Shown here piece by piece: positions 8,987-26,454 of a stretch of DNA of 62,355 nucleotides; position 1 is the stretch's first letter, and each line of letters begins with the position of its first letter. Under the pieces are notes generated by a model, which saw nothing but the letters and a program-made list of their open reading frames with translations, had not been told where the DNA came from and searched no databases. This DNA comes from a virus: positions 1 to 62,355 of the IMG/VR virus record IMGVR_UViG_3300035156_000134, one strand, 5' to 3'. Both the position numbers and the translations under genes were made by a program.

Positions 8987-9319
8987 GTGAGCCTAGAAGC
9001 GATGGGGTTGGGCCCTGATGCAGACGAGGACGCCGTCCGTTCCAAATTCAAAGAGCTCGCCATGCAGGTCCACCCGGACCGCGGCGGCTCAGCCGAACAA
9101 TTCCAAGCAGCTGTGGACCAACGGGACAAAGCGCTCCAAGAGGTCCGGCTCGGTCAGACTCTGGCCCATAACCGATCAGCACTGTTCAAACTTCGCGAAG
9201 CACTCCGAGGCACCAAGTGCCCACGCTGCGAAGGATCAGGCGAACGAATGAAGGTGGCCAGCGGGTTCCGTAGCATGCGGTTCGTCTGCCCCATGTGCAA
9301 AGGGAAGGGAACACTATGA
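8987..9319 (+). CDS. J-domain protein with DnaJ-type zinc finger
   Basis: The protein has 110 residues with a GTG start preceded by AAGGGAG. Residues 1-50 form a truncated J domain with the HPD motif (AMQVHPDRGG), needed to stimulate Hsp70/DnaK ATPase. The C-terminus carries CPRCEGSG and CPMCKGKG, the paired CxxCxGxG motifs of DnaJ. So it combines both recruiting and zinc modules in a miniature. It overlaps the ligase start (ATGA). It probably recruits host DnaK to replication or assembly complexes (inference). Confidence 0.8.
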   Translation: MSLEAMGLGPDADEDAVRSKFKELAMQVHPDRGGSAEQFQAAVDQRDKALQEVRLGQTLAHNRSALFKLREALRGTKCPRCEGSGERMKVASGFRSMRFVCPMCKGKGTL

Positions 9320-10245
9320 AGCCGACGCTCGCAGCCGATGTGGAGGACTTCACTAAGCTGAGGTATCCGCTTTACGGGTCCTTCAAGGTCGACGGTGTCC
9401 GAGGCCTCATGCCTGATCGGCACCTCCTGCCTCGCAGCCTGAAGGAGTTCGGCAACGAGCCCACCATCAGGTGGTTCGATGGATGGGCTGAGAGCCTCCA
9501 GGGCATGGACGGCGAGCTGACCCTAGGTGCTGATCCGGCTCCGAAGGGTGTGCGCCTGTGCCACGCCACCAGCTCGGCTCTGAGCACCCACGACACGCCG
9601 GCTGAGATCCATTGGTGGATCTTCGACCTGTGTGGCGATCGCTTCGAGGACCTGCCCTTCTCGCAACGGCGAGGCCTGTTGATCGATCGGTTCAGACGGA
9701 TGGGAGCTGCCACCCAGAAGAAGCTCCGGGTGCACCTGCTCGAGCAGCGCCTGATCCGGACGCCTGAAGAAGCTGTGGACTTCGTGGCCGAAGCCTTGGC
9801 CCTAGGGTATGAAGGTGCCGTGTTCAAGGACCCGACTCTGCCGTACAAGAATGGCCGGTCCACGCTCCGCAGCCAGCATCTGTTGCGGGCCAAGCCTACG
9901 GCCAGCTGTGAGGCCAAGATCCTGGGCTTCATCGAGGAGATGAAGAACAACAATGAGGCCACCATCAACAAGCTCGGCGGCAAGACCCGCAGCAGCCACA
10001 AGGCCAACAAGACGGGCACTGACACGCTCGGCGCTTTGATGGTCGAGATCCTGAACGGCCCTTTCAAGGGTGTGTCCGTGAAGGTTGGGACCGGTTGGAC
10101 CGATGCCGAGGCGTCCTGGATCTGGGCGAACAAGACGAAGCTGTCTACGGCCATCGTCAAGATGAAATACTTCCCACTCGGCTGCAAGGACAAGCCGAGG
10201 CACCCTGTCTGGGATAGCTTCCGCGAGAAGTTCGACGTGTCCTGA
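9316..10245 (+). CDS. ATP-dependent DNA ligase
   Basis: The protein has 309 residues, close to but shorter than T7 ligase. Motif I is FKVDGVRG with nucleophile Lys24. MDGEL (motif III), WWIFDL (IIIa), EGAVFKDP (IV) and LLRAKPT (V) follow in order. The C-terminal OB-fold segment VSVKVGTGWTDAE is present. It seals nicks during lagging-strand synthesis and recombination. Start at 9316 overlaps the J-protein stop. Confidence 0.9.
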   Translation: MKPTLAADVEDFTKLRYPLYGSFKVDGVRGLMPDRHLLPRSLKEFGNEPTIRWFDGWAESLQGMDGELTLGADPAPKGVRLCHATSSALSTHDTPAEIHWWIFDLCGDRFEDLPFSQRRGLLIDRFRRMGAATQKKLRVHLLEQRLIRTPEEAVDFVAEALALGYEGAVFKDPTLPYKNGRSTLRSQHLLRAKPTASCEAKILGFIEEMKNNNEATINKLGGKTRSSHKANKTGTDTLGALMVEILNGPFKGVSVKVGTGWTDAEASWIWANKTKLSTAIVKMKYFPLGCKDKPRHPVWDSFREKFDVS

Positions 10246-12347: not shown

Positions 12348-14387
12348 ATGGCTCGGCGTCCGACAATGCCGAAGCCGACCACAGTCGACTTTGAGACCAA
12401 AGGGATTGAGGGTCGGCCCGACTACCCACCTGAGCCCGTGGGTGTGTCGATCAAGGAGTTCGGAAAAAAGGCTCGGTACTGGTCGTGGGGCCACCTGGCG
12501 GGTGGCAACAACTGCTCCAAGGCCGAGGCGGCCAACGCGCTGAAGAAGGTGTGGGCCAAGCGGCAGACCGTCCCGATCCTCTTCCAGAATGCCAAGTTCG
12601 ACGTCGACGTGTGCGAGGTCCACTTCGAGCTGCCGGTCCCGGCCTGGCACGACATTCATGACTCGATGTTCCTGATCTACCTGGAGGATCCACGGCGGCC
12701 CACGTTCGCGTTGAAGCCGAGCGCTGAGTTCTACCTAGACATGCCGCCCGAGGAACAGGACGCGGTCAGGGACTGGCTGCTGGAGAAGGAGCACAAGCTC
12801 TGGGTCGAGAGCCACCTCGGGATCGATCCGAAGACCGGCAAGCGGGAGACCGTTAAGCCGAGTACTTTCGGCAAGTTCATCGCCTACGCGCCTGGAAACG
12901 TGGTTGGCCCGTATGCCAACGGCGACTGCGTGCGGACTGAGAAGCTGTTCGTCAAGCTGTGGACCCGGGCCGCTGAGCGGGGCATGCTGGAGGCCTATGA
13001 CCGTGAGCGCCGCCTGATGCCCCACCTGCTCACGTCAGAGCGAGAAGGTGTCAGGCTGAACATGGCCCAGCTCCGGAAGGACTCGCTCGCCTACGAGGAC
13101 GTGCTGACCAAGATCGATGCGCAGATCCGGAAGATGACCAAGTCGCCGAGCCTGAACATCGACTCCGGTCAGGAGTTGGCGCACGCCATGATCAAGTCGA
13201 ACATGGCCGATGAGGGCCAGCTCGGCTACACCAAGGACGGCAAGGTCCAGACCAACAAGGCGGCGATTCAGGCCGGCGTCACGAACCCGGACATGCGGGC
13301 GCTGCTGTCGTACCGAGCGCCACTGGCGACCTGCCTCAAGACCTTCATGCGGCCGTGGCTCCGGACGGGTGAGCGGTCAGATGGGATCTTGTTCACCAAC
13401 TGGAACCAGGTCAAGCAGGGCGACGGCAAGAACGTGGTGGGCACCTCGACGGGCCGACTCAGCTCCACGCCGAACTTCCAGAACATTCCGAACGAGTTTC
13501 CTGAGCTGATCCAGCTGCTAGGCTTCCTCGTCAGCCAGAAGCCCACGCCTAAGCAGATCGCTGCGGCGGGCGCCAAGCTGAAGGCGCTCGAGATCAAGCT
13601 CAAGGTGCCGAAGGGGCTACCGCAGCTGCCGAAGGTACGTGGCTACATCATCCCGTACAATCCGGGCGAGATCCTGCTCGACCGAGATTACTCGCAGCAG
13701 GAGGTCCGCATCCTGGGCCACTACGAGGATGGGCCACTCAAGGAGCAGTACCTCGCCGACATCTGGATGGACTTCCACGATCGGACCCGGCAGCTCATCT
13801 TCGAGATGCTCGGTGTGCTCTATGATCGGAGGCCGGTCAAGAACACCAACTTCGGCATCATTTACGGGCAGGGCTCAACCAGCCTGGCCATCAAGAACGA
13901 TATCACACCGCAGGAGTCGAAGGACCTGCTCAACGCCATTCTGACCGTGTTCCCAGGGATCAAAGAGATCAACGAGGACATGAAGGAACGGGCGGCGAAT
14001 GAGGAGCCGATCCGGACGTGGGGCGGAAGGGAGTATTACTGCGAGCCAGCCGCATACTCCGAGAAATACAAGCGGGTGATGTCGTTCGAGTACAAGCTCA
14101 TCAACCTGCTGGTGCAAGGGTCGGCAGCGGACGCCACCAAGGAGGCCGCCATCCGGTGGTGCGAGGCGAAGCGGCCAGAGACCCGGTTCCATCTGAACAT
14201 TCACGATCAGCTGACTGGGTCCACGCCGCTGAAGCTCCTGCACCCGGAGATGAAGGTGATGCGGGAGTGCATGGAGGGGCTGGACTTTGATATCCCGCTC
14301 CTGACCGAGGGCAAATGCTCGACCAAGAATATGAATGCGTTGGAGGTCTACGACAAGGCCGGCGTCATCTACTACAAGGACAAGTGA
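12348..14387 (+). CDS. family A DNA polymerase with 3'-5' exonuclease
   Basis: The protein has 679 residues, the size of T7 DNA polymerase. The N-terminal DEDD exonuclease shows VDFETKG (motif I). Polymerase motif A is LLDRDYSQQEVRIL, motif B is RRPVKNTNFGIIYG (Phe at the sugar-discriminating position) and motif C is LNIHDQLTG, with Gln in place of the usual Glu after the catalytic Asp. It is the replicative polymerase, transcribed with the primase-helicase and nuclease genes. GGAG lies 9 bases before the ATG at 12348. Confidence 0.92.
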   Translation: MARRPTMPKPTTVDFETKGIEGRPDYPPEPVGVSIKEFGKKARYWSWGHLAGGNNCSKAEAANALKKVWAKRQTVPILFQNAKFDVDVCEVHFELPVPAWHDIHDSMFLIYLEDPRRPTFALKPSAEFYLDMPPEEQDAVRDWLLEKEHKLWVESHLGIDPKTGKRETVKPSTFGKFIAYAPGNVVGPYANGDCVRTEKLFVKLWTRAAERGMLEAYDRERRLMPHLLTSEREGVRLNMAQLRKDSLAYEDVLTKIDAQIRKMTKSPSLNIDSGQELAHAMIKSNMADEGQLGYTKDGKVQTNKAAIQAGVTNPDMRALLSYRAPLATCLKTFMRPWLRTGERSDGILFTNWNQVKQGDGKNVVGTSTGRLSSTPNFQNIPNEFPELIQLLGFLVSQKPTPKQIAAAGAKLKALEIKLKVPKGLPQLPKVRGYIIPYNPGEILLDRDYSQQEVRILGHYEDGPLKEQYLADIWMDFHDRTRQLIFEMLGVLYDRRPVKNTNFGIIYGQGSTSLAIKNDITPQESKDLLNAILTVFPGIKEINEDMKERAANEEPIRTWGGREYYCEPAAYSEKYKRVMSFEYKLINLLVQGSAADATKEAAIRWCEAKRPETRFHLNIHDQLTGSTPLKLLHPEMKVMRECMEGLDFDIPLLTEGKCSTKNMNALEVYDKAGVIYYKDK

Positions 14388-19814: not shown

Positions 19815-20354
19815 ATGACCGGCACACAACTCTTTATCCTCGTTGCCCTGATTACCATTTTGGCAGGCGCCATGTTCTTGGCCGGCTGGCTTTGGCGGGC
19901 CATCAAGTATCCCGACATGATGACCGACATCGTCGACTTCCACGAAAAGTTCAAGCTCGAGTACGACGGCGGGCCCCGTATCATGCCTGACGACCTGTTT
20001 GACTTCCGCTTCAAGTTCATGCACGAGGAGCTGGCCGAGTATGCCGAAGAGCAGGAGCGCATCTCGCTCTACAACGCTGGCCCGATCCAGCCCATCAAGA
20101 TCGACCAATGCCTGGAGATGCAGCTCGACGCTCTGGTCGACCTCGTCTACGTCACACTCGGCACGGCGTACCTCCAGTTTGGCGGCAAGAATTTCAAGAT
20201 CGCCTGGAACCGGGTGCAGGAAGCCAACATGGCTAAGGTCCGGTGCGAACGGCCTGGCGACAGCAAGCGCGGATCCACGTTCGACGTCATCAAGCCGGCT
20301 GGCTGGACGGCACCGAGTCATATGGATCTGATCCAGCAGCGCCACGCTAGCTGA
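19815..20354 (+). CDS. membrane-anchored MazG-like NTP pyrophosphohydrolase
   Basis: The protein has 179 residues. An N-terminal membrane segment (LFILVALITILAGAMFLAGW) is followed by an all-alpha NTP pyrophosphohydrolase core: DFHEKF, KFMHEELAEYAEE (E-E-x2-E) and DALVDLVYVTLG (D-x3-D), then AWNRVQEANM. This family hydrolyses (d)NTPs such as dCTP or dUTP to the monophosphate. TAGGAG before ATG 19815 supports the membrane-bearing start. It stands directly before the base-modification cluster, so it could remove an unmodified dNTP and supply dNMP. Confidence 0.75.
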   Translation: MTGTQLFILVALITILAGAMFLAGWLWRAIKYPDMMTDIVDFHEKFKLEYDGGPRIMPDDLFDFRFKFMHEELAEYAEEQERISLYNAGPIQPIKIDQCLEMQLDALVDLVYVTLGTAYLQFGGKNFKIAWNRVQEANMAKVRCERPGDSKRGSTFDVIKPAGWTAPSHMDLIQQRHAS

Positions 20355-20363
20355 ACTCAACTA

Positions 20364-20392
20364 TGTACAAAGGCTGGGCTGTGCGATAGCCT
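20364..20392 (+). promoter_or_regulatory. TGTACA-family promoter
   Basis: TGTACA (20364-20369), 17-base spacer, TAGCCT (20387-20392), then CTGCTGAAGGAGG before ATG 20416. It drives the modification genes. Confidence 0.7.
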
Positions 20393-20415
20393 GGCCTCTG
20401 CTGAAGGAGGATCCC

Positions 20416-21435
20416 ATGAAGACGTTTCTATTGAGCCCATTCTACCCGGTGGCAGACAAGCTGGACACCAGCCACCGAGCTGGCTGGGCGCGGTACTGGA
20501 CACGCGCCCTTGGCGAGGTGGAGGTCAAGCCGACCCTGCTGACGACGGCCACCATGCCCGCGCTGGATCAGGCCAAGAAGGGCGACATCATCTACTGTTA
20601 CCACGGCATGGAGTGGGGTGGCGCCATGAACCTGCAGTCCGGCCTGACGAACGAGATCATCGCCCGGGCCGATCGGCTGGTCGACGCTAAGAAGCGGGGC
20701 GTCAAGCTCGTCAGCCTCGATATCCCCATGCCGTCGTATGGCAAGCTGCTCGAGGCCCGAGGCTATGCCCGGTCCGAGCACCTGACGGCCGCACTCGCCA
20801 AGCAGGGGTACCTGAGGGTGCCAAACGAGCGAGCGGCACACGTGATCATGGGAGACAGCCACGCTCTCAGCCAATATGTGCCTGGCGCTGTGATCTACCG
20901 GACCGACGGCCAGACCCTCCACGGCGCCATGCTGGTCGGCCTCGAGAAGCGCCTGGAGAATTGGGCCTTCGAGACGGCGGTGGAGCTAGAGAGTTTGTCA
21001 AAGCTGACCTCGTACTTCGGCAACATCGACATCCGCCACCACATCTGTCGGCTGCCCGACCCGGGCAAAGCTATCAAGGACCTGATCGACGAATACGGCA
21101 AACAGCTGAACTCGATCCGTAACTCTAACAACATCTCTGAAATTGAGGTGGTCCTGCCGCTCCACATCGAGAGCGAGGACCGCGTGCTGCCCAAGACGGG
21201 CTGGTATAAGGGGACACCGTTCTTCGGCACGTGGAGCGAGCGGCATCAGGTCAAGATCGCGATGATGACCCGGATCAAGGCCATGGCCAAGAAGCACGGG
21301 TTCGCGGTGGTCGACCATCCGAAGCACTTCCTCATGCGGAATGGGCAGCTCGACTTCGCCGTGATGGAGACTCCTCGGTCCGTCCACATCCGGCCGTCCG
21401 AGTATCGCCTCATCCAGGAGGGCATGACATGGTGA
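20416..21435 (+). CDS. SGNH/GDSL-like protein of the modification cluster
   Basis: The protein has 339 residues and is soluble. Block-I-like motif IMGDSHALSQ (GDSH) near residue 138 and a later YFGNIDIRHH (G-N-x-D...H, about residue 200) follow the SGNH hydrolase order (Ser in GDS, Gly, Asn, His). The first 120 residues (CYHGMEWGGAMNLQSG, LVSLDIPMPSYG) resemble a Rossmann-like region. In cluster context it might transfer or hydrolyse an acyl or glycosyl group on a modified base; not demonstrated. It overlaps the next gene by 7 bases. Confidence 0.5.
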   Translation: MKTFLLSPFYPVADKLDTSHRAGWARYWTRALGEVEVKPTLLTTATMPALDQAKKGDIIYCYHGMEWGGAMNLQSGLTNEIIARADRLVDAKKRGVKLVSLDIPMPSYGKLLEARGYARSEHLTAALAKQGYLRVPNERAAHVIMGDSHALSQYVPGAVIYRTDGQTLHGAMLVGLEKRLENWAFETAVELESLSKLTSYFGNIDIRHHICRLPDPGKAIKDLIDEYGKQLNSIRNSNNISEIEVVLPLHIESEDRVLPKTGWYKGTPFFGTWSERHQVKIAMMTRIKAMAKKHGFAVVDHPKHFLMRNGQLDFAVMETPRSVHIRPSEYRLIQEGMTW

Positions 21436-22553
21436 CCGTGTCGCTGAAGTCCATCCGTGACATGATGTGCACCGCTGCTCGGAACGAAGGGATCTTACGG
21501 GACGAGAAGGGCTACCGCGCCAAGATCGTGGACGTGCGTCCCTTCGTGGAAGCGCACAACCGAGGATTGGTGTTCACACCGTACTTCGTCGAGGCTCTGC
21601 ACTATGTGGCCAAGGCGAAGAAGCTGCAGACAGCGTCGCTGGCTGGAAAGAAGGTGCCGAAGGTCGGGGACCCGCTGATGGAGGCCATCCCGATCTACAA
21701 CACGGTCGAGCGCCGCTATGCCGGGTTCAGCAATGTGCTCGAGCACCTCTGGTACGGGGTTGGAGCTCCGAAGTTTTTTCAGAATAGCGCGGCGGGCCGG
21801 CTGCAACCGCTGGTGCATTGGCAGCACCTCGGCAGTGGTAAGAAGCTGGAGGAGTGGCTTTACATTACGTTGGTTCACCGACTGACAGGTAGTGGTGCTA
21901 GCTTCGAGAGTGATCACGGGTGGCGGAACAACCGGGTGGCTGAGATGGCACACCTCGGGGCGCTGGCCAGCATGGCCAAGTTCATCCGCTATTATCCTGA
22001 GCCGATCTTCACGTCGATCGGGAACCAGATCCCGCCGTTCCCACCGATGGGTGGGCGCGCATATCTGCAGGACGTGGCACCGGAGTTCGTGATGCGTGTG
22101 GCTGACGTGCTTCGTGGCGTGGCGATCATCAACAAAGCGCCGATGGGGATCAAGCTGGCTGTCGACACCGTGCTTGGCATCCACAAGACGATGGGCTACA
22201 AGCAGTTCAAGTTCGTCTTCACGGCCTGGGTCATGGACATGGCCGAGTATCTGCCGCACCTGGTGGACCCCAACAGCGATTGTTACCACGGCAAGAACGC
22301 CATCGAGAGCATGAACATCTGCTTTGACCGGCTGCCGACCATGAAGCTTCAGGACTTCTACGACACGGCTACGCGCCTCTTCGCCGACCTCACTGGCACG
22401 AAGCCGATGGACGTGGAGGACGCCAGCCCGGGCTGTGACCTGGTCCGATGGATCGAGAACTACGTCCCCAAGAAGGGCTTCGACCATGTGCTTGAGCAGG
22501 GAGTCTACAACGGCAGCAGTCTCCGGTGGCACGCGGGCAGACAGCCTCAATAG
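21429..22553 (+). CDS. candidate amino-acid:DNA transferase (aGPT-Pplase-like)
   Basis: The protein has 374 residues; GGAGGG precedes ATG 21429. The segment LTGSGASFESDHGWRNN, preceded by GFSNVLEHLWYGVGAPKFF, resembles the conserved core of alpha-glutamyl/putrescinyl thymine pyrophosphorylases, glycosylase-fold enzymes that replace a pyrophosphate on 5-hydroxymethylpyrimidine in DNA with an amine or amino acid. The clade is uncertain. Together with the kinase (23515) and hydroxymethylase-like gene (24478) this would supply the condensation step. I could not verify the family by alignment. Confidence 0.5.
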   Translation: MVTVSLKSIRDMMCTAARNEGILRDEKGYRAKIVDVRPFVEAHNRGLVFTPYFVEALHYVAKAKKLQTASLAGKKVPKVGDPLMEAIPIYNTVERRYAGFSNVLEHLWYGVGAPKFFQNSAAGRLQPLVHWQHLGSGKKLEEWLYITLVHRLTGSGASFESDHGWRNNRVAEMAHLGALASMAKFIRYYPEPIFTSIGNQIPPFPPMGGRAYLQDVAPEFVMRVADVLRGVAIINKAPMGIKLAVDTVLGIHKTMGYKQFKFVFTAWVMDMAEYLPHLVDPNSDCYHGKNAIESMNICFDRLPTMKLQDFYDTATRLFADLTGTKPMDVEDASPGCDLVRWIENYVPKKGFDHVLEQGVYNGSSLRWHAGRQPQ

Positions 22554-22557
22554 ACCA

Positions 22558-22586
22558 TGTACAGCCGCGTGTGGGCATCGTAAGCC
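22558..22586 (+). promoter_or_regulatory. TGTACA-family promoter
   Basis: TGTACA (22558-22563), 17-base spacer, TAAGCC (22581-22586), then CGCTGAAGGAG. It drives genes from 22608 to 26454. Confidence 0.7.
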
Positions 22587-22607
22587 AGACCCGCTGAAGG
22601 AGACACC

Positions 22608-23513
22608 ATGTCACACGACACCCATACCAACGACCGCTCGTTCCTCGAGCTCAACCACGGCGCCACCGTCGAGACCTACCGCCAGATGGCGAAGGGTTGG
22701 AAGGACCCGTTTCCGCTCCCCACCATAGCCAAGGTCGGCCTCGATGCCGAGCGAAGCGTGCTCGTAGTCCGAGACGACTTGTCCGAGCTCGGCAGCAAGG
22801 CTCGCTTTGGCAGCCTGCTGGTTCAACGCATGAAGGAGGACACCATTGTCTATGTCGCACCTCGAGTCGGTTGGGCACCGATCAGCCTCGCCAAGCTCTG
22901 CAAGATGTATGGCAAACGGCTCATCCTATTTGCCCCAGCTTCAAAGGATGCGTCAGATCATCAGCGGGTGGCCGTTGAGCTCGGCGGCGAGATGCGCTTC
23001 GCTCGCATCGCAGCCATGCCAGTGCTTCAGCTGCAGGCGAAGGCATTTGCTGAGAAGCACGGCTATCTCTTCGCCCCACTTGGTCTTCGTCATCCCCTGG
23101 TCACAGCGGCGATTGTGGCCACTGCAGACAAGCTCGCGAAGAGGATGGGGTCACCGCCTGCCGAAGTCTGGTCCGCCATGTCAACTGGAGTTTTGGGACG
23201 AGGACTCCAACTGGCCTGGCCTGACGCAGAGTACCACGGCGTTGCGGTTGCTCGGAATATCAAAGCGGGTGAACGTGGTCGAGCTATAATTCACAGCCAC
23301 CCGATGGCGTTCCTGCAGGACGAGAAGAAAGAGTTTCGGCCGCCCTTCCCGTCTGCGTCGAACTACGACGCCAAGGTCTGGAGGTTCATGCAGGACCACG
23401 CACAGGACGGCGCCCTGTTCTGGAACGTAGCCGGCGAAATTCAGCCGACCAAGCCCAACAAGCTCAAGTCCGACGTCGCATGGGGCGATGCTTCGGCCTT
23501 CAAGAGGAAGTAA
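22608..23513 (+). CDS. PLP-dependent enzyme, fold type II
   Basis: The protein has 301 residues. VVRDDLSELGSKARFG carries a lysine in the position where ACC-deaminase/D-cysteine-desulfhydrase-like enzymes bind PLP (RDDL...GSK). Alpha/beta repeats follow (VYVAPRVGWAPISLAKLCKMYG; RLILFAPAS; FAPLGLRHPLVTAAIVATAD; AMSTGVLGRGL), consistent with the tryptophan-synthase-beta fold. It would act on an amino acid or an amino-acid-bearing base. CTGAAGGAG leads the ATG. Confidence 0.65.
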   Translation: MSHDTHTNDRSFLELNHGATVETYRQMAKGWKDPFPLPTIAKVGLDAERSVLVVRDDLSELGSKARFGSLLVQRMKEDTIVYVAPRVGWAPISLAKLCKMYGKRLILFAPASKDASDHQRVAVELGGEMRFARIAAMPVLQLQAKAFAEKHGYLFAPLGLRHPLVTAAIVATADKLAKRMGSPPAEVWSAMSTGVLGRGLQLAWPDAEYHGVAVARNIKAGERGRAIIHSHPMAFLQDEKKEFRPPFPSASNYDAKVWRFMQDHAQDGALFWNVAGEIQPTKPNKLKSDVAWGDASAFKRK

Positions 23514-23514
23514 C

Positions 23515-24465
23515 ATGGCCGACAGAGTCAAACGCATCATCATTCTTGAGGGGCCAGATTGCGCGGGCAAGACCACGCTGGCCCGAGAGCTTAGTGACAG
23601 GTACGGTAGCGAGATGGCCGTCATCCACCAAGGACCGTTCCCTCGAGTGACTGCAGCGCAGCTGCCTCGGTTCTACGTCGAGAGCATGATGCCCGCCATC
23701 AACAACTACACTGGCCTGATCATGGATCGCAGCTGGTTGTCGGAGCCAATCTACGGCAGCGCCTTCCGGGGTGGGACTAACCGCATCAGCGATGTGGCCA
23801 GGCGCCACCTCGAGCGGATCGCCATGCGGCACGGCGCCGTGGTCGTGCTGTGTCTCCCGCCGTGGGAGGCAGTGGCGACCGAGTGGAAGAAGCGGAAGGG
23901 CTTCGACCCGAAGGCCGAGATGCTGGAAGGCCTCGACCAGCTCGAACATGTCTACCAAGGCTACGAGCGGCTGCATCTCGACACGGACCTCCCGGTGGTG
24001 CGCTACAACTACAAGATGCACGGCAGCCAGAACGGGATCATCCGCAGCCAGCTCGAACGGATCGGGGCCCCGCTGCATGAGCTGAGGTCTCGGATGGTCG
24101 GCGACTTGGATGCCCAGGTGATCTTGGTCGGCGAGAAGGCCAGTGACCACACTGACGCTGACGCACTCCGCCAATTCCCGTTCTGTTCATTCAGCAAGCA
24201 GGGCTCCAGCGCATGGTTGACCGAGCAGCTGTGGAAGGCCGACATCTCCGAGCAGGCGCTGCTGTGGCTGAACGCTTCGGACGGTGTCCACCAGATCAAG
24301 GACCTCTACGCCAGACCCACGATTGCGCTCGGCCAAGCTGCGTCCGATGCTTTGACGGCTCTGGGTATCCCGCATGAGATGGTGGCACATCCGCAGTATC
24401 ACAAACGTTTCACCCCAGGGATCGAGTATCCGCTGATCCCGCTGATCAAGTCCCATCTCAAGTAA
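23515..24465 (+). CDS. P-loop nucleotide kinase fused to UDG-like domain
   Basis: The protein has 316 residues. Residues 1-195: thymidylate-kinase-like P-loop enzyme with GPDCAGKTT (13-21), IMDRSWLSEPIYG and a lid-like stretch. This resembles kinases that phosphorylate 5-hydroxymethyl-pyrimidines or their nucleotides. Residues about 200-316: VILVGEKASDH, SSAWLTEQLW, ALLWLNASD, PTIALGQAASDAL and VAHPQYHKRF follow the motif order of the uracil-DNA glycosylase superfamily (G-E-x, Asn, LG-x-A, HP), without iron-sulfur cysteines. The fusion suggests recognition of a modified base coupled to phosphorylation; this is inference. Confidence 0.7.
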   Translation: MADRVKRIIILEGPDCAGKTTLARELSDRYGSEMAVIHQGPFPRVTAAQLPRFYVESMMPAINNYTGLIMDRSWLSEPIYGSAFRGGTNRISDVARRHLERIAMRHGAVVVLCLPPWEAVATEWKKRKGFDPKAEMLEGLDQLEHVYQGYERLHLDTDLPVVRYNYKMHGSQNGIIRSQLERIGAPLHELRSRMVGDLDAQVILVGEKASDHTDADALRQFPFCSFSKQGSSAWLTEQLWKADISEQALLWLNASDGVHQIKDLYARPTIALGQAASDALTALGIPHEMVAHPQYHKRFTPGIEYPLIPLIKSHLK

Positions 24466-24477
24466 AGGAACCAGACT

Positions 24478-25299
24478 ATGCAGACCCTCAATAACGCCTG
24501 GTGGGAACAGCTAGCGTTCGTCATGGCTGGAGGCCGTCAGACCAGCCCGCGGGGCCAGCTGACACTGGAGGTGCCGTCCAGAACTCTGAGCTTCGACATG
24601 AACTACCCCGTCGTGGTCCAGCCACTTCGGAAGCTCGGCTACAAGTTCATGGCGGCCGAGGCATGGTGGATCCTGTCAGGCCGGGACGACGTCGACGCCA
24701 TCGCGCCGTACAGCAAGGACATCAGCAAGTTCAGTGACGACGGCCACAAGTTCTACGGCGCCTACGGGCCGAGGATCGTGGCGCAGCTCGACTACGTCGT
24801 CAATGCTCTGCTGTCGGACCCAGACACTCGACAGTCGGTGCTGACCACTTGGCGGCAGAACCCCACCCGCTCGAAGGATGTGCCGTGCACTGTCGCCTTC
24901 AGCTGGATGATCCGGGACGGCGCCTTGGAGTGCCACGTGTTCATGCGGTCGAGTGACAACTGGCTGGGCATTCCGTACGACGCGTTCAACTTCAGCATGC
25001 TGTCGGCCGAGATTGCCCGTCAACTGAACCAGCACCCGCTCCTCCACGGCGTGCCGATCAAGCTCGGTGACTGTCACCTGACGGCCGCGTCGAGCCACAT
25101 CTACCAGCGCAACTTCGATGATGTGCTGGCCGTGCTGAACACAGCTCCGGTCCGGAACAACGGTGTGCCTGTGCCAGTGTCGCTCTACAACCCGGAGGAG
25201 ATGATGCCTTCATACGGGCGGTGGACCAGCGTAGCGGCGTTCCTCGATATCCTCAAGGACACGAAGGCCGGTCACGAGCTTCGCTGGTGGGAACAGTGA
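24478..25299 (+). CDS. thymidylate-synthase-family pyrimidine (hydroxy)methylase
   Basis: The protein has 273 residues. The catalytic loop DVPCTVAFSW places Cys137; RSSDNWLGIPYDAFNF and GDCHLTAASSHIYQRN complete the family signature. Thymidylate synthases have Asn 31 residues after the Cys (E. coli Asn177); here it is Asp168, as in T4 dCMP hydroxymethylase (Cys148/Asp179). So the substrate may be dCMP rather than dUMP, and the product 5-hydroxymethyl- or 5-methyl-dCMP. ThyX at 25810 makes a second canonical thymidylate synthase unnecessary. Coupled to the deaminase by GTGA. Confidence 0.8.
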   Translation: MQTLNNAWWEQLAFVMAGGRQTSPRGQLTLEVPSRTLSFDMNYPVVVQPLRKLGYKFMAAEAWWILSGRDDVDAIAPYSKDISKFSDDGHKFYGAYGPRIVAQLDYVVNALLSDPDTRQSVLTTWRQNPTRSKDVPCTVAFSWMIRDGALECHVFMRSSDNWLGIPYDAFNFSMLSAEIARQLNQHPLLHGVPIKLGDCHLTAASSHIYQRNFDDVLAVLNTAPVRNNGVPVPVSLYNPEEMMPSYGRWTSVAAFLDILKDTKAGHELRWWEQ

Positions 25300-25823
25300 A
25301 CACGAAGCGGCTGAGTAGGGAGGCCTGGGCAATGGAGGTTGCCCGGGTCACTGCCAAACGGGCCTCATGCCTCCGCCGCGCAGTCGGCTGTGTGCTGCTG
25401 GACTCGGACGGCTTTATTCTGTCCACCGGCTACAACGGTGTCGCTGCGGGCCAGCCACATTGCAATCGGCAAGCCCAAGACACGTGGCCAGATGGCGATC
25501 CGTTAGGCCCGGTGCAGTATCCGTCGGCTTGCCCCGGCGCTTTCGCCCAGAGCGGCACGAACCTAGATGGTTGCCATGCCATCCACGCCGAGCAGAACGC
25601 GCTCCTACGGTGTGCCGACGTCCGCAGGATCCACAGCTGCTTTGTCACCGCCAGCCCGTGCATGACCTGCACGAAGCTGCTGATGAACACGTCGTGTGAA
25701 CGGATCATCTTCGACCAACCTTATCCGCACAGCGAGGCTGAGCTGCTGTGGATTAACGTCCGGCCAGCTCGCCGCTGGCTCAGCTTCGCAGATTACATGG
25801 AGAACGAAGATGCAGATAGTTAA
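25296..25823 (+). CDS. dCMP-deaminase-like zinc deaminase
   Basis: The protein has 175 residues with a GTG start overlapping the previous stop. HAIHAEQNAL and ASPCMTCTKLL provide the His/Glu and PCxxC zinc site of the cytidine/deoxycytidylate deaminase superfamily. Extra His/Cys residues (PHCNRQ, SACPG, DGCH) in a long insertion may bind a second zinc as in T4-type dCMP deaminase. It converts dCMP (or a 5-substituted dCMP) to dUMP for ThyX. Overlaps the thyX start by 14 bases. Confidence 0.85.
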   Translation: MNTKRLSREAWAMEVARVTAKRASCLRRAVGCVLLDSDGFILSTGYNGVAAGQPHCNRQAQDTWPDGDPLGPVQYPSACPGAFAQSGTNLDGCHAIHAEQNALLRCADVRRIHSCFVTASPCMTCTKLLMNTSCERIIFDQPYPHSEAELLWINVRPARRWLSFADYMENEDADS

Positions 25824-26454
25824 TGCCTCCACCGTCGACTTCGTCGACAAGCTCGGGACCGACCTGACCGTGGTTAATGCGGCTCGCGTGTCGTTTGACA
25901 AGCACGTCGACCACATGGAGCTCGGCGACGTCAAACTGCTAGGCTACCTCGGTAAGCACGGCCACTGGTCGCCGTTCGCCCATGCGCAGGTGCAGCTGCG
26001 GATCACGGCCCCGATCTTCGTAGCGCGTCAGCTCGTCAAGCATCAGATCGGCTTGGTCTGGAACGAGGTCAGCCGCCGCTACGTCAGCGATGAACCGACC
26101 TACTTCCTGCCGACCGTGTGGCGAGGCAAGCCGATCAACGGCGCTAAGCAGGGCAGCTCGGGCGAAGTCATCCTGCCGCAGGATTTGATCGACGCAGCGG
26201 ACAAGCTGATGAGCGACTCGATCGACGTCTACCAGGCCTATATGGACTGCGGCGTGGCGCCTGAGCAGGCTCGCATGTTCCTGCTGCAGAACATGATGAC
26301 GTCGTGGTACTGGACGGGCTCGCTCTATGCGTGCGCCCGGGTGTGCCATTTGCGGCTGGATGCCCATGCACAGGGCGAGTCGACCGATGTGGCGAAGGAG
26401 ATTGACAGGATCTGCCGAGAGCACTTCCCACATGCGTGGGCAGCTCTGATCTAG
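25810..26454 (+). CDS. thyX: flavin-dependent thymidylate synthase
   Basis: The protein has 214 residues. VKHQIGLVWNEVSRRYV is the ThyX signature (RHRxxSxNExSRRY variant with KHQ), followed by PTYFLP. HWSPFAHAQVQLRITAPIF is typical of the N-terminal core. It makes dTMP from dUMP with FAD and methylene-tetrahydrofolate. Its stop lies in CTAG, shared with the stop of the convergent minus-strand gene at 26451. Confidence 0.9.
   Translation: MQIVNASTVDFVDKLGTDLTVVNAARVSFDKHVDHMELGDVKLLGYLGKHGHWSPFAHAQVQLRITAPIFVARQLVKHQIGLVWNEVSRRYVSDEPTYFLPTVWRGKPINGAKQGSSGEVILPQDLIDAADKLMSDSIDVYQAYMDCGVAPEQARMFLLQNMMTSWYWTGSLYACARVCHLRLDAHAQGESTDVAKEIDRICREHFPHAWAALI

Follow-up and report, generated by a model that had tools for sequence, protein, structure and literature searches.

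A candidate cytosine hypermodification cluster in an uncultured virus combines a dCMP hydroxymethylase-type core with an SGNH, ORF3 and PLP enzyme trio

Introduction

Phages M6 and ViI hypermodify thymidine by a route that leads from a dUMP hydroxymethylase to 5-hydroxymethyl-deoxyuridine (5-hmdU) in DNA, a DNA kinase, an aGPT-Pplase and a set of tailoring enzymes, and the amino acid:DNA transferases (ADDT) act on the phosphorylated base. Phage T4 prepares hydroxymethyl-dCTP by means of gp56 (dCTPase), gp42, gp1 (a deoxynucleoside monophosphate, or dNMP, kinase) and the Cd deaminase. Here we analyze a 62,355-base IMG/VR virus record (IMGVR_UViG_3300035156_000134, in its entirety referred to as the window), in which eight consecutive genes encode, in order, a MazG-like pyrophosphohydrolase, an SGNH-fold protein, a protein that we call ORF3 (after its open reading frame, ORF), a fold-type II pyridoxal phosphate (PLP) enzyme, a P-loop kinase, a thymidylate synthase (TS)-family enzyme, a dCMP deaminase and ThyX. 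We consider it probable that these genes specify a two-stage hypermodification of cytosine, in which a T4-like supply of 5-hydroxymethylcytosine (hmC) is followed by construction of a larger base by the SGNH protein, ORF3 and the PLP enzyme, hereafter the trio.

The locus combines features of several described systems. With M6 and ViI it shares a PLP enzyme of the M6 gp52 family, which forms part of a DNA hypermodification cassette (PMC9476957), an ADDT/aGPT-Pplase-like predicted fold and a TS-family hydroxymethylase, but it differs in its dCMP-type TS residue and its additional SGNH gene, and its cassette ORFs include neither a match to the 5-hmdU DNA kinase nor a radical SAM gene. The functions of the T4 route are all predicted in the window; unlike T4, the cassette has no glucosyltransferase and carries the trio, an adjoining ThyX, a pyrophosphatase of the MazG type and a kinase with a uracil-DNA glycosylase (UDG)-like tail. 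Stenotrophomonas phage AXL3 and Pseudoxanthomonas phage PW916 have the same MazG-kinase(UDG)-TS-deaminase unit in the same order, with kinase and TS about 40–49% identical to the window proteins, whereas they carry an S-adenosylmethionine (SAM)-dependent methyltransferase and not the trio. AXL3 DNA resists 35 of 37 restriction enzymes and is cut only by TasI and Tru1I, at sites of A and T only (PMC7504290).

In MetaGPA, cytosine-modified contigs are enriched in TS (mostly with Asp177), PRA-PH, dCMP deaminase, MafB19-like deaminase and DNA ligase domains (PMC8670742), and every one of these, including the Asp177-type TS, has a match among the window proteins (for the ligase, PF01068 at 35.7 bits and PF14743 at 26.1 bits, below its cut-off of 28). 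The 5cmdC carbamoyltransferase clusters (PMC8670742) have a core in common with the window, comprising TS with Asp177, PRA-PH and deaminase/MafB19, and a ligase with the same Pfam domains lies elsewhere in the window; they tailor by a carbamoyltransferase, whereas the window would do so by the trio.

Results

The eight genes span positions 19815–26454, all on the + strand and tightly packed, with small gaps and several overlaps of a few bases, which agrees with the consecutive arrangement of an original prediction made from the sequence. The same gene set is found again in many contigs and is therefore not a chance association. It forms a DNA base-modification cluster, in line with the predicted pyrimidine hypermodification. 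Pfam confirmed the MazG-like (PF01503, PRA-PH/MazG, 27.4 bits against a cut-off of 21.3; also PHROG 671, 4.7e-20), TS-family (PF00303, 72.5 bits), deoxycytidylate-type deaminase (PF00383, 63.6 bits; MafB19-deam, 27.1 bits) and ThyX (PF02511, 137.5 bits) labels.

The evidence for the target base comes from the TS-family enzyme. Pyrimidine choice in this family depends on one residue, with Asn177 of the E. coli enzyme selecting uracil and Asp selecting cytosine (PMC8670742); the counterpart in the T4 dCMP hydroxymethylase is Asp179, and its further signatures include Asp145 and Ser94 (PMC6400193). The best PDB match of the window protein is the CMP hydroxymethylase MilA (3e-19), with the specificity Asp aligned, and its key residues are Asp134-Val-Pro-Cys137, which contains the catalytic Cys, together with Thr138, Asp168, Tyr96 and Gly94. 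Asp168 occupies the position of E. coli Asn177 and T4 Asp179 and is thus the dCMP-type residue. Taking distinct readable sequences, we compared loci having two or more trio genes with M6-type (thymidine-hypermodifying) loci as an internal control, and found Asp at this position in 56/56 of the former versus Asn in 27/27 of the latter. The Asp145 signature, an Asp three residues before the catalytic Cys, is present as Asp134 in the window and as Asp in each of the 56 trio-group proteins, and is shared by the M6-type group; its presence indicates hydroxymethylation rather than methylation. The Tyr96 signature of dCMP hydroxymethylases is likewise found, and in locus L041 (related loci are given L numbers), a T4-like contig with the trio, the TS-family gene is a homologue of T4 gp42 (1.6e-75). 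Judged by these residues, the enzyme is likely a dCMP hydroxymethylase whose product would be 5-hydroxymethyl-dCMP, and cytosine, not thymine, is most likely the target of the cluster.

Next to this core, the trio forms a conserved unit. Relatives of ORF3 occur in at least 575 IMG/VR stretches, and none was found by tblastn among 50,697 phage records. Within 6 kb of ORF3 at 27 distinct loci, each with at least 3.5 kb of flank on both sides, the SGNH gene was present in 26, PLP in 24, TS in 22, the deaminase in 17, the kinase in 12 and MazG in 10, and the full trio lay inside 2.5 kb in 24 of the 27. Some of the loci lie on a shared contig; counts refer to distinct sequences where so stated, and the contigs from IMG/VR derive from uncultured viruses. 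SGNH relatives were found near none of 18 M6-type ADDT loci. The trio genes occur in more than one order (SGNH-ORF3-PLP, ORF3-PLP-SGNH and SGNH-PLP-ORF3), and their linkage is therefore maintained despite rearrangement; in L150, SGNH and ORF3 are naturally fused in one protein. A fourth gene, X, accompanies the trio in many marine T4-like loci (39 ORFs, matching ORF3 at 95% in hhalign). It encodes a distant ORF3 relative of 325 amino acids between ORF3 and PLP, as in L041 (8087–9064) and its relatives.

In AXL3-type relatives, the place of the trio is occupied by a SAM methyltransferase. On a tree of the TS proteins, trio-bearing members are intermixed with methyltransferase-bearing relatives, and the trio label needs six changes, at least four of them forced by well-supported branches; some rows of this tree are long-branched, and L002 and L003 are labelled NONE despite their methyltransferase gene, an ORF-picking artefact. 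These gene contents indicate that tailoring cassettes are swapped over one common core. The SAM methyltransferases at the trio position in L002 (7614–8438), L003 (934–1758) and L004 (7715–8464) are candidate hmC O-methyltransferases.

Turning to the individual trio proteins, the SGNH protein belongs to PHROG 13881 (3.9e-52) and carries GDS (146–148) and GNID (202–205) motifs and His324, with GDSH (from G146), GxID (from G202) and SVH invariant among its homologues. By sequence it has no match in the PDB. Its AlphaFold model (pLDDT 87) matches a sialate O-acetylesterase (2.3e-6) and the O-acetyltransferase PatB (1.4e-5) in a Foldseek search of the PDB, each with probability 1.00, upholding the predicted SGNH-like label. 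The model, with the GDS of block I and the GxN of block III, supports assignment to the SGNH superfamily; in place of the DxxH of block V there is the invariant SVH324, with no Asp three residues ahead of the His. We propose that this protein transfers or hydrolyses acyl or ester groups on the modified base.

For the PLP enzyme, the fold-type II label was substantiated by PHROG 7093 (4.9e-42), a family that includes M6 gp52, and by residues expected of this fold type, namely a candidate PLP lysine, Lys64 (21/21), and a Ser/Gly-rich phosphate loop with Ser192 (21/21) and Gly194 (19/21). The match to Pfam PALP (4e-7) lies below cut-off. C-terminal YDxK and FWN motifs are shared with M6 gp52. In L006 (10840–13271, an Erythrobacter phage) and L007 (7980–8705, a Microcystis phage) the PLP domain is annotated as a DNA modification methylase, and ParB-annotated genes lie upstream of it in L007.

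ORF3 had been called aGPT-Pplase-like, and this held for its predicted fold and not for its sequence. No meaningful Pfam or PHROG match was obtained, the amino acid:DNA transferase family PF18724 had no sequence match among 38 ORF3 homologues, hhalign against the M6 gp51/gp55 families gave 1–13%, and sequence searches of the PDB found no link to ADDT or HMUDK_hel. In BFVD, the ORF3 model (pLDDT 82) matched viral proteins that carry an amino acid:DNA transferase annotation (8.7e-15, with a TM score of 0.72, and 7.8e-4). Against the PDB its fold had no significant match, and the top TM among the listed matches belongs to a DNA glycosylase (7ou3, 0.30/0.40, E 6.3). On the strength of the model, we propose that ORF3 may flip the base and act as a transferase on hmC in DNA.

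The kinase matches PHROG 761 (3.3e-18) and AAA_28 (27.8 bits), and its family matches are thymidylate/dNMP-kinase-like. It has no Pfam match to the 5-hmdU DNA kinase family PF18748; neither this family nor the helical domain PF18723 matched any window protein, with M6 gp54/gp55 matching as a positive control, and we rejected a role as 5-hmdU DNA kinase on the missing PF18748 match. Of the predicted fusion to a UDG-like domain, the P-loop kinase stood, and the UDG part is weak, with PF03167 matches in 4 of 12 homologues (best 0.0013) and none in the window protein itself. In L012 and L013 (about 12469–13086), a kinase lacking the UDG-like region adjoins an intact trio, and a stand-alone UDG-like protein related to the C-terminus of the window kinase lies directly before SGNH in L032 (9174–9725; PF03167, 0.0014).

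The coordinates of all features are collected in Table 1. The cluster lies between a replication block, with a helicase (17045), DNA polymerase A (12348) and the DNA ligase (9316), and late genes on the − strand.

Table 1 Genes of the candidate cytosine hypermodification cluster and the DNA ligase as supporting context
Feature	Position	Strand	Basis
MazG-like/PRA-PH all-alpha NTP pyrophosphohydrolase	19815..20354	+	PF01503, PHROG 671
SGNH-fold protein	20416..21435	+	PHROG 13881, invariant motifs, AlphaFold and Foldseek
ORF3, all-alpha, amino acid:DNA transferase/aGPT-Pplase-like predicted fold	21429..22553	+	Model, BFVD matches
Fold-type II PLP enzyme, phage M6 gp52 family	22608..23513	+	PHROG 7093, Lys64
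P-loop NMP-kinase-like protein with UDG-like C-terminal domain (about 24121–24462)	23515..24465	+	PHROG 761, AAA_28
Candidate TS-family dCMP hydroxymethylase	24478..25299	+	PF00303, MilA match, residue tests
dCMP deaminase	25296..25823	+	PF00383, MafB19-deam
ThyX flavin-dependent thymidylate synthase	25804..26454	+	PF02511
ATP-dependent DNA ligase (supporting context)	9316..10245	+	PF01068, PF14743

Discussion

The pathway that we favor builds on gene families, a dCMP-hydroxymethylase signature and a conserved but exchangeable trio, all of which find support in sequence or structure. Before replication, the MazG-like enzyme, which we propose to be a dCTP (dUTP) pyrophosphatase analogous to T4 gp56, a substrate that we infer, would lower dCTP by converting it to dCMP, the TS-family enzyme would convert dCMP to 5-hydroxymethyl-dCMP, and the P-loop kinase would help to bring the latter to hydroxymethyl-dCTP. 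With the TS-family enzyme dedicated to dCMP, the deaminase (dCMP to dUMP) and ThyX would provide dTMP, and the polymerase would then insert hmC in place of C. In the DNA, ORF3 would bind hmC and attach a small group, probably derived from an amino acid, the PLP enzyme would tailor that group, and the SGNH protein would add or remove an acyl group. What we infer from this material is the order of the steps, the action after replication, the involvement of amino-acid chemistry, the part played by SGNH and the nature of the final base. Cytosine hypermodification of phage DNA is a known kind of chemistry, and the enzyme set here is new, as its product probably is; consistent with the original prediction, the papers and family libraries searched contained no pathway matching this tailoring set. 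We put forward, tentatively and at somewhat less than even chances, that the product is hmC bearing an amino-acid-derived group placed by ORF3, tailored by the PLP enzyme and subject to an SGNH acyl step, such that a chemistry of thymidine hypermodification would have moved to cytosine and become widespread in uncultured phages.

The original prediction had framed the cluster in terms of thymidine hypermodification as in M6 and ViI, for which the gp52-family PLP enzyme and the ADDT-like fold of ORF3 could be cited, and dUMP could come from the dCMP deaminase. We rejected this frame, which now appears very improbable, on the Asp rather than Asn at the specificity position of every readable trio locus, the missing PF18748 kinase family and the cleavage of AXL3 DNA at A/T-only sites; the absence of a radical SAM gene from the cassette and the gp42 homologue in L041 also speak against it. 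Alternatively, the DNA could contain plain hmC (or 5-methylcytosine), with the trio engaged in, for example, small-molecule or cofactor work. The core by itself would explain an AXL3-like resistance, and action of the trio on DNA is a prediction, but the trio accompanies the hmC core across many contigs, it and another tailoring gene replace each other, the ORF3 fold resembles DNA-acting transferases and the PLP family serves in a DNA hypermodification cassette, making this alternative unlikely.

Rather more plausible, though still doubtful, is that the kinase-UDG fusion is an hmC DNA kinase, its UDG-like domain flipping the base and its P-loop domain phosphorylating the hydroxymethyl group, which would activate the base for ORF3, with the remainder of the pathway unchanged. 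This would fit the UDG-like matches among the kinase homologues, the stand-alone UDG-like protein before SGNH in L032 and, by analogy, hmdU kinases, which work with a helical glycosylase-like domain according to Pfam names. However, AXL3-type relatives carry the fusion without the trio. We place the kinase in the precursor stage because it is dNMP-kinase-like, is missing near the trio in many loci (present in 12 of 27, versus 26 for SGNH and 24 for PLP) and lacks the UDG-like tail in L012 and L013; since the precursor is likely 5-hydroxymethyl-dCMP, a dNMP kinase for this precursor is the better reading, and we propose an hm-dCMP kinase analogous to T4 gp1.

Several points weigh against a two-stage cytosine pathway. 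The T4 Ser94 signature (Ser/Thr) is replaced by Gly94 in the window enzyme, and the trio group has Ser in 29 and Gly in 26 at this position, with Gly in 24 M6-type enzymes as well. The tie between ORF3 and the amino acid:DNA transferases is one of predicted fold only, and for the trio-bearing phages the pathway is a prediction from their genes. AXL3 does without the trio. No dedicated hmC-activating DNA kinase was identified, and if ORF3, by analogy with ADDT enzymes, also needs a phosphorylated base, the P-loop kinase might instead need to act in DNA.

Modified bases are of interest for the evasion of restriction and CRISPR and for the bias that sequencing shows against modified phages, and their enzymes may be of use in labelling DNA. 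The cytosine decorations of phages found in this work are sugars and a carbamoyl group, and a trio tied to a dCMP hydroxymethylase and present in no fewer than 575 viral stretches suggests a common base of another, predicted kind.

Several cytosine-modifying backgrounds share the SGNH gene. T4 gene 42 without glucosyltransferase genes is reported for Aeromonas phages 44RR, 31 and 25 (PMC2993671), and these phages encode SGNH homologues with 27–32% identity to the window protein, a candidate lead to their hmC modification; no ORF3 or PLP relatives were found alongside SGNH in Aeromonas T4-like phages among the phage records. The 44RR protein is fused to a domain weakly matching HMUDK_hel, and a sodium:solute symporter gene (PF00474, 6e-53) adjoins the fusion gene (L005, 4408–5931). 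In Aeromonas phage 25 (L226, 5932–8113), the neighbors of SGNH are genes for a UDP-galactopyranose mutase (PF03275, 5e-54) and a 358-amino-acid protein, which suggests a sugar on hmC. Elsewhere, in L016–L020, L032 and L218, SGNH is paired with an HMUDK_hel-matching protein, and in L016 (5900–9765), L221 and L222 a myo-inositol-1-phosphate synthase-like gene lies near SGNH and an HMUDK_hel-like protein, possibly for an inositol-derived modification.

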